Assembly: GCA_003990705.1 (NCBI GenBank)
Contig: AP018318.1
Coordinates: 5,443,001 to 5,507,000 of the forward strand
Source: Nostoc sp. HK-01
Lineage (GTDB): Bacteria; Cyanobacteriota; Cyanobacteriia; Cyanobacteriales; Nostocaceae
DNA: 64,000 bases
Direction: 5' to 3'
The notes beneath the pieces are model-generated. The model did no database searches. It was not told the DNA's origin and saw only the letters and a list, made by a program, of their open reading frames with translations. Below are positions 5,902-40,421 of the stretch, one piece after another. The first letter of the stretch is position 1; every line of letters begins with the position of its first letter. The position numbers and the translations under genes are program-made.

Positions 5902-6008
5902 ACTCAGCACGCTGCTCAACTCCCGCTACCGCTAACAGCACTTAGCAACGCCACTTGCTTCAAGTCGGCAGAGCCGCCCAACGCAGTGGCTCCTCAGCAC
6001 TCAGCACT
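5902..6008. repeat. Intergenic repeat, family member also found inside cobB
   Basis: Bases 5902-5942 match 34892-34932 (opposite strand) over 41 bases with one mismatch. The rest, with gtcggcagagccgcccaacg, resembles the segment near 7190-7215. The element directly precedes the DUF3326 start codon and leaves an open reading frame into it, which creates a false N-terminal extension of that gene. Confidence 0.75.
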
Positions 6009-6012
6009 TAAA

Positions 6013-7050
6013 ATGCGTCCTTACACAGCTATTCTAATTGTACCTACTGGCGTTGGGGCAGCGATTGGGGGGTATGCTGGCGATGCTATACCTGTTGCTC
6101 GAACATTAGCACAGGTTTGCGATCGCCTAATCACTCACCCCAATGTCCTCAATGGCGCAAATTTATATTGGAACATCCCCAATGCTTTCTATGTGGAAGG
6201 TTTTGGGCTTGACAAGTTTGCCTCTGGATGCTGGGGATTACGACCAGTCCGCAATAATAAAATAGGTTTGCTTTTAGACCAAGGCATTGAACCAGAGTTA
6301 CAGCTACGACACTTACAAGCTGCTGATGCAGCGAGGGCAACTCTCGGATTAACTATCACAGATTATGTAGTTACTGATGCCCCATTGAATGTAGAACTAC
6401 GCACTTCCACATCAGGGGCAAGTTGGGGAACCATCGGCAACCCCGATAGTTTACTCAGGGCAGCAGAGATATTAATCAATAAAATAGGGGCAGAAGCGAT
6501 CGCAGTTGTCGCCCGTTTCCCTGATGATATGGATGAAGATGCTGTGCAGAACTATCGCCAAGGTAAAGGCGTAGACCCGTTAGCAGGTGCAGAAGCAGTA
6601 ATTAGCCATTTACTAGTGAGAAACTTGCAAATTCCTTGCGCCCATTCACCAGCCCTCGCCAGCGCCCCGCCTTACCCTGATTTATCTCCGCGTTCCGCCG
6701 CCGAAGAATTAGGCTATACTTTTTTACCAAGCGTACTTGTAGGCTTAAGTCGCGCCCCCCAATTTATCGTCGAGAAACAATTATTTACATCTCATCCAGC
6801 AGATATTTGGGCTGATCAAATAGATGTTGCGATCGTACCTGCAAACGCTTGTGGTAGCAGCGCTCTACTAAGTTTAAGTCAAAGCCGATGCCTAATAATT
6901 ACCGTCAAAGATAATCACACTCAAATACAAGTTCCGGCCCAACCGTTGGGAATCAAATCCATACAGGTAAACTCGTATTTAGAAGCAGTAGGTGTATTGG
7001 TAGCCCTCAAAGCAGGCATCAATCCAGATACTTTGATTCTTGGTCAATAG
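6013..7050 (+). CDS. DUF3326 domain protein
   Basis: A 345-residue protein if read from the ATG at 6013. The open frame continues upstream to 5812, but that part is encoded by the small gene's other frame and by a repeat, so it is rejected. The N-terminus MRPYTAILIVPTGVGAAIGGYAGDA and the segments PVARTLAQVCDRLITHPNVLN and EGFGLDKF are typical of DUF3326, a family found in cyanobacteria and plant plastids whose function is unknown. Glycine-rich turns near the start hint at nucleotide or cofactor binding, but this is inference. No membrane segment or signal peptide. Confidence 0.8.
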   Translation: MRPYTAILIVPTGVGAAIGGYAGDAIPVARTLAQVCDRLITHPNVLNGANLYWNIPNAFYVEGFGLDKFASGCWGLRPVRNNKIGLLLDQGIEPELQLRHLQAADAARATLGLTITDYVVTDAPLNVELRTSTSGASWGTIGNPDSLLRAAEILINKIGAEAIAVVARFPDDMDEDAVQNYRQGKGVDPLAGAEAVISHLLVRNLQIPCAHSPALASAPPYPDLSPRSAAEELGYTFLPSVLVGLSRAPQFIVEKQLFTSHPADIWADQIDVAIVPANACGSSALLSLSQSRCLIITVKDNHTQIQVPAQPLGIKSIQVNSYLEAVGVLVALKAGINPDTLILGQ

Positions 7051-7089: not shown

Positions 7090-7257
7090 CTACTATCCTG
7101 CGGTATGCCCTGACACTCCTTCGTCGCTAATAGCAGTTGCTTCTCCTAATCGGAGACGCTACGCGTAGCTTGCTTCCCCATAGGGTTACAAGTCGCGGAA
7201 CCCGCCTAACGCACTGCTTCACCGTTGCGCGTCTACATACTTCATACTTCATACTTC
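7090..7257. repeat. Composite intergenic repeat region before the CPBP protease gene
   Basis: It holds a palindromic gagacgctacgcgtagctt segment, a stretch agtcgcggaacccgcctaac resembling part of the 5902-6008 repeat, and three perfect atacttc heptamers (7237-7257). An open frame runs through it into the next gene, but the composition is that of intergenic repeats, not of coding sequence. Confidence 0.65.
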
Positions 7258-7268
7258 ATAACTTTCCT

Positions 7269-33805: not shown

Positions 33806-34230
33806 TAATTTCCAACTTTAGTAACCGACAAAAGTGTATGGGTAACTTAAAGTTTAACAAGTGAATTCAGTAGTCTGTGAGCAACATTCTTTAACTAAGA
33901 AATTAAGTTATTCTAGGTGAAGTTACTAACATGGAAATTGCTGAGTATGATGAAATTACTAAAAATTGTGTTTCCATTCCAGCCATTAATATGAATTTGA
34001 CGAGATTTTAAGCCAGTTATAGCAATCTTAAATGAGTCATGAAAAATATAGATAAGGAAACGAACTAAAACTATTTTGGATTATGGAAGGCTTTATTGAT
34101 CATCTGTTCAGAACTCAATTTCTCACAATCATTTTTCAAATGGATATAACCTAATACTCTTGCGTTGTTAACGGATTAAAATCCTTCTAAATTCATTTAT
34201 GCCAAAGACAAAAAATTTTCTCTAAAATGT
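33806..34230. other. Gap between the GGDEF gene and cobB; no gene seen
   Basis: The 425-base A/T-rich stretch holds the promoter of the GGDEF gene and the end of cobB. A small palindrome, ggattaaaatcc (34171-34182), is the only structure noted. I see no RNA gene. Confidence 0.4.
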
Positions 34231-35694
34231 TCAAGTCATAACATTGCTGTAGTACATCCTATGAGACTGACATTGTTGAATAAATCGCTGGGGAATTTCT
34301 ATACTAGCGCCCCAATGTAAATGTATATATGAAGCATGAAGATTAATAGGTAAATTCCAGCCTTCAAAGCCCATATTTTCATCACAATCGTAGCGGTAAG
34401 TTTCAAATAATGGCTGATGAGAATTAGCTCTTAAACTTGAGCGATGAAATTCATGTCCGTAAATATTTGTCCCAGCATTTACTAACAAACTATCTTGTAA
34501 AGCTACCGCCCGACGATAACCCAAAGTTAAACGTCCACCCATACAAGCAGATGTGGGGATTATTCCTACCATTGGGTAAGTTTTACCCTCAAAATCAATG
34601 ACTTCTCGACACAAATACATCAATCCGCCACACTCGGCAATTGTGGGCATTCCTTGAAGAATAGCTGTTTTGACGGCTTGCAAAACATTTGTATTTTTAG
34701 TTAATTGTTCAGCAAATACTTCTGGAAAACCACCACCAAAATACATTCCTTGAATATTTGGCGGTAATTCTGCATCTGCTAAAGGACTCCAAAAGGCTAA
34801 CTCTGCGCCTAATTGTTGGAGTAAATCAAGGTTATCTTGATAATAAAAATTAAAAGCGCGATCGCGTGCAACGGCAATCCTTACTTGAGTGAGTGCTGTT
34901 AGCGGTAGCAGGAGTTGAGCAGCGTGCTGAGTTACCGAACTTTGCTCAACGCGGGGAACCCGCGCACGCAAGTTCTCGCTGAGTTTTGAGTTTTGAGTGT
35001 CTAACAACGGTAATAAACTTTGCCAATCGAAGCAAGTATCACCTAAATCAGCTAGACGTTCTACTACAGCATCCAGTTCACTAATTTCGCCTGTGGGGAC
35101 TAAGCCGAGATGGCGGTCAGGAATTGTAATGTTATCTTGACGACGCAATACACCAAGAATCGGTAATTGTAGAGATTGTAGAGCATCTTTGAGTAAAGAG
35201 AGATGGCGATCGCTCCCCACGCGATTTAGGACTAATCCAGCTATTTTAATTTTAGGGTCAAAGGAACAATAACCATGCGCGATCGCCGCCACAGAACCCG
35301 ATAACCGACTGCAATCAATTACCAACACTACAGGTAAATCTAGTAACCGTGCAATATGCGCCGTACTAGCAAAAGTGAATGGGTGTTGACTATCGTCTGT
35401 TCCACTCCCCATCACCCCATCAAACAACCCCATCACCCCTTCCACCAAAGCATATTCACTTGCTTGGCGATGTTTAGCAAAACATTGCTGAACGTAGGCT
35501 TCACTAGTCAGCACTGGGTCTAAGTTGCGACAAGCAAGACCAGTCACATACTGATGAAACATTGGGTCAATATAGTCCGGGCCGACCTTGAAAGATTGCA
35601 CCTGACCACCACGACGACATAAAGATGCTAACAGGGCGAGTGTGACTGTTGTCTTACCCACCCCGCTACGTTCGCCAGCAATTACTAAAGCCAT
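34231..35694 (-). CDS. cobB: Cobyrinate a,c-diamide synthase (CobB/CbiA), with in-frame repeat insertion
   Basis: A 487-residue enzyme that amidates the a and c side chains of cobyrinate in cobalamin synthesis. The N-terminal ATP-binding domain has GERSGVGKTTVTLALL, FKVGPDYIDP and EGVMGLFDG; the C-terminal glutaminase domain has the nucleophile Cys in AECGGLMYLC and GHEFHRSS. Between them, at about residues 232-269, lies an extra segment encoded by a genomic repeat (34886-35002), which includes the peptide VTQHAAQLLLPLTAL. It falls in the linker, so both domains remain intact and the enzyme may still work. Usual length without insert is about 450. Confidence 0.93.
   Translation of the reverse strand: MALVIAGERSGVGKTTVTLALLASLCRRGGQVQSFKVGPDYIDPMFHQYVTGLACRNLDPVLTSEAYVQQCFAKHRQASEYALVEGVMGLFDGVMGSGTDDSQHPFTFASTAHIARLLDLPVVLVIDCSRLSGSVAAIAHGYCSFDPKIKIAGLVLNRVGSDRHLSLLKDALQSLQLPILGVLRRQDNITIPDRHLGLVPTGEISELDAVVERLADLGDTCFDWQSLLPLLDTQNSKLSENLRARVPRVEQSSVTQHAAQLLLPLTALTQVRIAVARDRAFNFYYQDNLDLLQQLGAELAFWSPLADAELPPNIQGMYFGGGFPEVFAEQLTKNTNVLQAVKTAILQGMPTIAECGGLMYLCREVIDFEGKTYPMVGIIPTSACMGGRLTLGYRRAVALQDSLLVNAGTNIYGHEFHRSSLRANSHQPLFETYRYDCDENMGFEGWNLPINLHASYIHLHWGASIEIPQRFIQQCQSHRMYYSNVMT
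34886..35002 (-). repeat. Repeat element inserted in frame within cobB
   Basis: The core 34892-34932 matches the intergenic repeat at 5902-5942 (other strand) with one mismatch in 41 bases. The whole unusual stretch is about 117 bases (39 codons), without stop codons in the cobB frame, and includes gcggggaacccgcgc, a GC-rich palindrome. Exact borders are estimated. Confidence 0.7.
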
Positions 35695-35800
35695 AAGAAG
35701 GTTAAGAGGTTGTGACTAGCTTAAATCTTAAAAGATTACGAACTATCTTAATAAAACCTCCGCGCAACTTTGCGCCAACCTCCATGTACCTTTGCGTTAA

Positions 35801-35836
35801 AAAAAGCCCCCCATTGTGAAAATTGGGAGACTTTTT
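35801..35836 (-). terminator. Strong terminator after opcA
   Basis: A 13-bp stem (aaaaagcccccca / tgggagacttttt, with G-U pairs) lies 22 bases after the opcA stop, with a T run on the minus strand. It ends the fbp-tal-zwf-opcA cluster. Confidence 0.75.
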
Positions 35837-35857
35837 GGAAAAATTAGCTGAGTCAAT

Positions 35858-37228
35858 CTAACCCTTCACTGAAGGTTTCACAGTTTGGGCAATAACTCCC
35901 AAGCTGTCTTCAAACAGAGTTTCACGTCCCCAGCGTTGTACTTGCTGACTCAGCAGTGCTTCCGCCTTTTGTTCTGACAGTGAACTCACTTGTTGGAATA
36001 AACCAGCAGATTGAGCGCCACCGTGGGTTTCCATCCGCATACAACCGCCAGTCTCCGAGCAGATGACTGTGCTACAGTCGGCTTTGGTATTAGTTGAACT
36101 CAGACGTAAAGCAATCAAGTCACCGGAGATATCGCCTGCATCAGCAACCGGAACTCCGGCTAACTCGGCTTCTATTTGTTTTTGGTCTTGAGTCACAAAG
36201 CGAATCCGAATGATATCGTAATCATTGCTTTCCTTTTGATAGGAAATCGGCATCCATTCTAGGCGACTAGCCAACCAACCTAAAAATAGTAGTGCTTGGG
36301 CGGGGTTGCCTTTTTCATAGTCAATTGTTACCCGGTCAATTTCCTTTAACGCAGCACGACGAGTGGGGGGGTCGTAAGCTTCCGCAGTCAATTCTTGCCA
36401 TGCTGATATACGCCGCCAATTCAAATCAGCCAAGGGGACATTAGTTTCTACTAACTCTTGTAGGCTGAGTAAATCACTTTCTGGCTCGGTAAAGTTGCAA
36501 GAATCAACGATGACGTTATTGCAAACTGCGGCTAGTCGCTTAAATAAGGCGTTGTTGGGGTCGGGAGTAGCTTTCCACCACAGGAACTTCGGCAGACCAC
36601 CAATTAATAATGCGGGAATCATCCCCCCAATTCTTTCTAAAGCCGAGGCTGTACCAGAAAGGGTGATGTATTCGCAACAAACAAGGGTGCTAGAAGATTG
36701 CTTTTGAATGGGGCAGTAAGCAGAAACTTGGGCTTTTACACCTTCATCTTCACCGGCAATTGGACATAGGGCAATGATGCGGCAGGGGTTACGTAAAGCT
36801 ATTTCATCAGCAATTCTGGGGCTGGTAACACTGAAGTTATAGGAACCATTGCCATTTTCTGCAACGGCTCCATTACCTTGGCGTTTGGTGTATTCTTCCC
36901 GCAATTTTACCAAAGTTTCTGGTGTAGCCGTGCCAGTTTCTAGCAGTTCATATTTTTGTTGCGCTTGTCGCAGTGCGATGTCTGTCTGTGGCCCTAAAAT
37001 CCCATCGATGGGGCCGTTATAAAATCCCAGAGATGCTAATAGATATTGGGTTTCTTCAGGTTCGTAAACCACTAAGGTAAAAGTTGTGGCACGAGTAGCA
37101 GCAGGTAAGCCGCCATCTTCACCAGTGATGCCGTAACTTTGCCAAATTTGATTCAATTCCGCTTCGATTTCATTCAGCGAAATGTCCTTGGGGGCTTGGA
37201 GTGAAAAAATGGTAGGAGCTTGGGTCAT
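35858..37228 (-). CDS. opcA: Glucose-6-phosphate dehydrogenase assembly protein OpcA
   Basis: A 456-residue protein. The OpcA core includes GLPAATRATTFTLVVYEPEE at the N-terminus and FLWWKATPDPNN, ISAWQELTAEAYDPPTRRAAL further on. An inserted peptidoglycan-binding-like segment (about residues 58-110, LGFYNGPIDGILGPQTDIALR) is present, as in other cyanobacterial OpcA. OpcA is needed for full activity of the Zwf enzyme and links it to redox control in Nostoc and Anabaena. It is the last gene of the cluster, 94 bases after zwf. Confidence 0.95.
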   Translation of the reverse strand: MTQAPTIFSLQAPKDISLNEIEAELNQIWQSYGITGEDGGLPAATRATTFTLVVYEPEETQYLLASLGFYNGPIDGILGPQTDIALRQAQQKYELLETGTATPETLVKLREEYTKRQGNGAVAENGNGSYNFSVTSPRIADEIALRNPCRIIALCPIAGEDEGVKAQVSAYCPIQKQSSSTLVCCEYITLSGTASALERIGGMIPALLIGGLPKFLWWKATPDPNNALFKRLAAVCNNVIVDSCNFTEPESDLLSLQELVETNVPLADLNWRRISAWQELTAEAYDPPTRRAALKEIDRVTIDYEKGNPAQALLFLGWLASRLEWMPISYQKESNDYDIIRIRFVTQDQKQIEAELAGVPVADAGDISGDLIALRLSSTNTKADCSTVICSETGGCMRMETHGGAQSAGLFQQVSSLSEQKAEALLSQQVQRWGRETLFEDSLGVIAQTVKPSVKG

Positions 37229-37235
37229 AGCTTTT

Positions 37236-37277
37236 GAAGTAGGAAGTATGAAGTATGAAGTAGGAAGTATGAAGTAT
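37236..37277. repeat. Heptamer tandem repeat between zwf and opcA
   Basis: Six tandem heptamers of the form GAAGTA(G/T) lie just before the opcA start, followed by a partly complementary segment (gccttcagacttcatact) that can fold back. This is of the short tandem heptamer repeat (STRR) type known from heterocystous cyanobacteria. It could modulate read-through from zwf to opcA. Confidence 0.7.
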
Positions 37278-37322
37278 GAAGGCTGAGATTTTTTCAGACT
37301 TTAGCCTTCAGACTTCATACTT

Positions 37323-40385: not shown

Positions 40386-40413
40386 TTTTGACTTTTGACT
40401 TTTGACTTTTGAC
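40386..40413. repeat. Heptamer tandem repeat between fbp and tal
   Basis: Four perfect ttttgac heptamers lie just after the fbp stop in the 311-base gap between fbp and tal. Just upstream is aatggtcaatagtcaat, another common low-complexity Nostoc motif. The rest of the gap holds no gene. Confidence 0.75.
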
Positions 40414-40421
40414 TTTTAAAA

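Follow-up and report, generated by a model that had tools for sequence, protein, structure and literature searches.

Translated repeats that are dispersed through a genome have been described in several groups of bacteria. Rickettsia RPEs are dispersed palindromes of 105-146 bp that lie in frame within many conserved protein genes and are tolerated there, their hosts being obligate intracellular bacteria, and the available text of the same source counts other bacterial MITEs among the translated dispersed repeats (PMC2229807). The GTAG/CGTC-tagged REPs are palindromes of 20-40 bp which, when intragenic, lie in ORFs and encode 20-30 amino acids; according to the accessible portion of that report, intragenic copies are frequent in DNA repair genes, including that of the UvrD/REP helicase, two Xanthomonas species have different REPs at roughly one position of recB, and GTAG REPs occur in filamentous cyanobacteria (PMC3733652). 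In Beggiatoaceae, TAACTGA heptamers carry stops in all frames in one orientation and 10 ORF-interior sets have the other; in the passages available, most of these repeats lie between genes, and a regulatory role is discussed for them (PMC4679880). The small dispersed repeats (SDRs) of Nostoc punctiforme are mentioned in an excerpt of PMC3116915.

Translated bacterial palindromes are a known kind of element. The new part, so far as the literature was searched, is a heptamer-linked set in free-living cyanobacteria by which one and the same loops of core enzymes are refilled with different repeats; we recognised no account of translated repeats refilling enzyme loops in cyanobacteria in the literature searched, which was mostly without subscription papers. 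Work by Elhai and colleagues in 2008 is said to have described the Nostoc punctiforme SDRs as mobile repeats of 21-27 nt, often embedded in tandem heptamers, and that description is not known to include translated insertions that refill enzyme loops.

The window analysed here is a stretch of 64,000 nucleotides from Nostoc sp. HK-01, part of a 7.52-Mb genome in 8 contigs (G000 in the following, one of a same-genus set of 11, G000-G010). In the CobB encoded in it, Pfam places the CbiA domain at residues 3-196 and the GATase_3 domain at residues 272-462. The linker between these domains is made up of a hairpin, here called A, and a 41-base module, here called B; both are dispersed repeats, and their coordinates are collected in Table 1. 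An earlier note on this DNA had described the linker as holding one genomic repeat that is translated in frame, without a stop, and adds about 39 codons. The frame is indeed uninterrupted over 487 amino acids with the repeat between the two domains, and the module, confirmed as B, matches the opposite strand over 41 bases with one difference (34892-34932, minus, against 5902-5942, plus; 98%), but hairpin A is present as a second repeat. The repeat-derived stretch is as long as proposed, but the net gain is 22 residues (40 against 18 in the shortest same-genus linkers). An AlphaFold2 model of CobB (40-sequence alignment; mean pLDDT 87.6) falls to 44-58 per ten-residue block over residues 231-270, with lesser dips at residues 91-110 and 191-200. 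The low values over residues 231-270 fit an insert-tolerant, disordered loop, and we read the linker as permissive and probably disordered. Placing the linker on a solved relative was attempted with a single-sequence query, which found no PDB chain match at E 0.001.

Table 1. Features of the cobB locus and of the second B copy in the window.
Feature	Position	Strand	Remarks
Second B copy	5902-5942	plus	probably leader of the DUF3326 gene
Third repeat, beside the second B copy	5947-5992	plus	by eye like the smc-loop filling of G008 (L317)
cobB	34231-35694	minus	intact 487-aa ORF: CbiA domain, linker, GATase_3 domain
Repeat-derived stretch in cobB	34886-35002	minus	about 39 codons
CobB linker	34890-34997	minus	hairpin A and module B
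Repeat B in cobB linker	34890-34932	minus	module of the earlier note, read VTQHAAQLLLPLTAL
Repeat A in cobB linker	34924-34997	minus	heptamer-flanked GC-rich hairpin, read SKLSENLRARVPRVEQSSVTQH
43-base core of A	34935-34977	minus	identical (100%) at no fewer than 4 further sites, of which two represent a single IS-like ORF found on two contigs

The repeat recurs elsewhere in the genome, as the earlier note's reading of it as a genomic repeat implied. We found 28 matches to the B core (up to 2 mismatches; a unit of ~31 bases between heptamers) and 26 to the A core (up to 3 mismatches), against 0 for backwards-pattern controls of both. Within the window, both 18-base halves of the 41-base match occur only at the two known places (up to 3 mismatches; expected 0.02 and 0.04), and the best other genome match to the whole of repeat A is 96% over 74 bases among the matches listed (40 of 82). 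Across the family, the B core is present in 79 of 192 genomes and in 19 of the 56 genera examined, with up to 244 matches in one genome; the control for this survey gave one match, in one genome (G168). A folds as a hairpin with weak shuffle z-scores (-1.5 to -2.0) and B folds weakly (-0.3 to -1.3), values too weak for folding to be taken as a signal in either repeat; an Rfam scan of positions 34000-36000, at E up to 1, gave no match to a structured-RNA family. At 7 distinct places in this genome (L009-L014, L023), two of them the IS-like ORF, A cores lie directly behind identical bases of another hairpin, and in G001 nested A forms remain in frame within long ORFs. Such nested copies suggest that the unit may be mobile. 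A transposase-like ORF of 611 amino acids, present on contigs C3 and C2, contains a nested A copy in antisense (1501-1543 in L009 and in L010).

The expectation of the earlier note that relatives would lack residues 232-269 did not hold. A linker is present in all 11 same-genus CobBs, which rules out relatives without one, and its length runs through 18, 18, 18, 19, 24, 27, 31, 31, 32, 40 and 47 residues, all linkers being distinct; identity averages 0.89 across the flanks and 0.16 across the linker (n=11). The linker of G002 contains one ACTCAGC heptamer followed by B, that of G007 heptamers and B in another frame, and that of G003 heptamers with a pair of B copies that are separated by 38 bp and use one open frame each; the linkers of G009 and G010 hold heptamer arrays. 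Five linkers lack A, B and ACTCAGC altogether: those of G001 and G005 are GACAAGG-like, those of G006 and G008 are rich in proline, and in that of G004 we recognised no repeat. Between nearly identical flanks, G000 has B of subtype AAQLLLPL and G002 has B of subtype RLNAPLPL, a difference that makes plain inheritance of B at this site unlikely. Of 80 named CobB loci considered, 56 were recognised by motif and 24 were not, and by eye many of the 56 linkers read resemble translated simple repeats. The own-genome dispersal search of foreign linkers covered one, that of Nostoc sp. WHI (L067), with 40 of 153 candidates scored: its repeat is unrelated to A and B and has at least 40 further matches in its own genome (E up to 0.01), at least 21 of them below 1e-6, all of which map to the linker part of the query.

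CobB is a site of translated repeats, as had been proposed, but it is not a special one, for SMC, UvrD, MutL, MutS2, TrpE and MetH, among others, show the same pattern. In the same-genus set, distinct linkers were found in 11 of 11 genomes for MutL and for SMC, in 10 of 11 for MutS2, in 10 of 10 for UvrD (the broken match of G001 being left out), in 10 of 10 for TrpE (G009 having no close match) and in all 8 MetH loci read of the 11 sought (3 left out). Linker identity in these six proteins is 0.25-0.40, against 0.89-0.98 in the flanks, and the loops of the seven genes, CobB included, measure 11-68 residues and are kept in all genomes read. MutS2 has 11-15 residues at its loop in 8 of 11 genomes, among them G001, which has two heptamers there; in G008, G009 and G010 the loop holds heptamers and a hairpin, with other sequence inside the hairpin in G009. 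G001, with heptamers and no hairpin, and G010, with the same heptamers and a hairpin, can be read as a seed-and-fill pair. Single places in other proteins are filled in different ways as well. In a GH38 enzyme, G000 and G001 carry A where G003 carries B; in an AMP-binding enzyme, B is read in one frame in G000 and in a different one in G002; in a P-type ATPase, the place is taken by B in G002 and by the heptamer alone in G001; and in a tRNA nucleotidyltransferase-like protein, both G002 and G003 have B, in differing surroundings. In G001, the matches to smc (L323/L324) and uvrD (L335) are split or contain stops, and these genes look broken or misassembled.

The position of copies relative to genes was counted for A in G000 (26 sites), G002 (14) and G001 (44 of 45, one being without sequence), and for B in G000 (28), G002 (27) and G003 (44 of 49); a site was taken as interior when inside an ORF of at least 190 amino acids and at least 25 residues from both ends. 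By this definition 43 of 99 B sites are interior (7 in G000, 18 each in G002 and G003), as are 13 of 84 A sites (5 in G000, 1 in G002, 7 in G001). All 43 interior B copies are in sense; the PLPLT frame is used by 34 of them and the PATAN frame by the other 9. Interior A copies are in sense at 11 of 13 sites, the two antisense sites being one transposase-like ORF on two contigs; 8 of the sense copies are in the usual frame and 3, all from G001, in another, two of these visibly nested in another A. The 56 interior sites fall in 49 ORFs, and 36 of the 39 host ORFs scanned have a Pfam family at the cut-offs used, the transposase-like ORF falling below Pfam's own cut-offs. Among the hosts are SMC, aspartate kinase, UvrD, MutL, P-type ATPase, UreD, TrpE and MetH. 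Some of the counted sites may be leaders, notably the copy near the DUF3326 gene and the sites just before an AAA_33 domain (L225, L246). The share of B copies inside long ORFs is 18/27 in G002, against 7/28 in G000 and 18/44 in G003.

Repeated ACTCAGC is free of stops in every sense frame (TQHSALS) and has TGA in every antisense frame. Of the 72 linkers read for the seven genes, 44 contain ACTCAGC, and the 28 without it count against a heptamer-linked model. Allowing one mismatch, a heptamer lies left of B in 24/28 copies of G000 and 24/27 of G002 (48/55 together) and right of B in 12/28 and 7/27, counts that cover G000 and G002; heptamers lie on both sides of A in 6/26, 7/14 and 17/44 copies (G000, G002 and G001). 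The background is 0.7-1.1%. At repeat-bearing loci amounting to 1.19 Mb (0.86 Mb of it ORF), which were picked for repeats and do not give a genome average, double heptamers number 37 in sense and 2 in antisense within ORFs and 50 outside them, both antisense cases being at most 8 residues from an ORF end. Because B with a single heptamer on each side leaves one antisense frame open, a stop filter alone is insufficient to account for 43 sense copies to 0 antisense; the orientation of B may in addition be inherited from a heptamer array already in the gene. Three further 7-base arrays of the window, at 7236-7260, 37235-37281 and 40386-40417 (units CATACTT, TGAAGTA and TTTTGAC), fit a tendency of this genome towards heptamer repeats in general.

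The reading that we favour, with a probability of about 0.78, is that heptamer-linked small repeats keep entering permissive enzyme loops, and that stops and frameshifts purge the rest. Heptamers in a loop would act as a seed for the addition or exchange of heptamer-flanked repeats, whether the repeats are inserted or the heptamers recombine with each other. The loop would tolerate the extra peptide, copies bringing a stop or a frameshift would be purged so that sense-strand, open-frame copies remain, and the repeat peptide would stay in the working enzyme, mostly as a neutral segment. Against this reading stand the 5 of 11 CobB linkers without heptamer, A or B, the location of most A (71/84) and B (56/99) sites outside long ORFs, and the two-sided heptamers in only 30/84 A copies. 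A wider proposal is that, in heterocyst-forming cyanobacteria at large, stop-free heptamer arrays in core-enzyme loops could be landing pads that exchange many unrelated small repeats, with SMC, UvrD, MutL and CobB continually gaining and losing peptides from intergenic-type DNA; this we put forward tentatively, at somewhat less than even odds.

The constancy of the loops, which are found in all genomes read and span 11-68 residues over the seven genes, could also mean that they are selected for length, flexibility or interaction and that repeats are only the raw material. Sister loops nevertheless differ in sequence, composition and length beside flanks that are 89-98% identical, and one and the same repeat is read in either of two frames, depending on the host, and we regard such selection as an unlikely explanation. 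It is more doubtful still that the fillings are ancestral and have merely diverged, with no repeated colonisation: one and the same site holds A, B, heptamers or unrelated sequence in sister genomes, and the two B subtypes of CobB (AAQLLLPL in G000, RLNAPLPL in G002) sit between nearly identical flanks, even if some fillings look shared, such as the CobB linkers of G001 and G005 or the B copy in the ATP-grasp enzyme of both G002 and G003.

We give very little weight to the idea that the repeats are cut from RNA or protein, or bypassed in translation. The hairpin that A can form would suit it, but the frame is kept, stops are avoided and antisense copies are nearly absent from ORFs, none of which removal needs, and positions 34000-36000 have no Rfam family match. 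Misassembly from short repeats is conceivable, yet cobB is intact here, the CobB frame is open in 11 of 11 same-genus genomes, and fillings are found in independent assemblies, of which those of G001 and G002 are single contigs; an assembly artefact or a decaying gene is accordingly just as improbable as removal. The continued entry of heptamer-linked repeats into permissive loops remains the preferred account.

Relative to the SDRs, as Elhai's 2008 work is said to have described them, A and B are alike in being embedded in heptamers (on the left of B in 48/55 copies, on both sides of A in 30/84). They also resemble the Rickettsia RPEs in being dispersed (26 and 28 matches) and in frame in conserved genes, and the analogy with in-gene palindromes drawn in the earlier note appears apt inasmuch as the linker repeat, read in frame, seems to behave like those elements. 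Compared with the RPEs as presented in the available text (PMC2229807), however, A and B are shorter, tied to a 7-base repeat and cyanobacterial, and the loops that hold them are filled anew by unrelated repeats. GTAG/CGTC REPs lie mostly at different sites within one gene category in the part of the report available (PMC3733652), whereas here refilling of the same site is the rule in seven genes. The reverse strand of B has a GTAG beside a possible short stem; B was not assigned to GTAG-12, the accessible text giving no consensus for it (PMC3733652). As with TAACTGA, the orientation of ACTCAGC within ORFs is limited by stop codons, but the linkers refilled here are those of enzymes, and the passages available of PMC4679880 contain no refilled enzyme linkers.

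Our results indicate that the building of core-enzyme segments out of genomic repeats is not confined to reduced intracellular bacteria but takes place in a free-living one too. Repeatedly refilled loops are natural replicates for how proteins tolerate new sequence, and a stop-free heptamer offers a simple rule for which repeats may enter genes. Such linkers should not count as conserved features of a protein, and genes may be made too long when an ORF finder runs on through repeats, as is probably the case for the DUF3326 gene. The B copy near that gene had been said in the earlier note to be open in the same phase as the copy in cobB. It does read open, in a frame without stops from 5812 onwards, and an upstream in-frame ATG at ~5879 leaves its translation possible. 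The DUF3326 domain, however, starts only after the copy, at residue 72 of the stop-to-stop ORF (Pfam), and has an ATG in frame just ahead of it, at 6013, so the copy is probably an untranslated leader and not coding.
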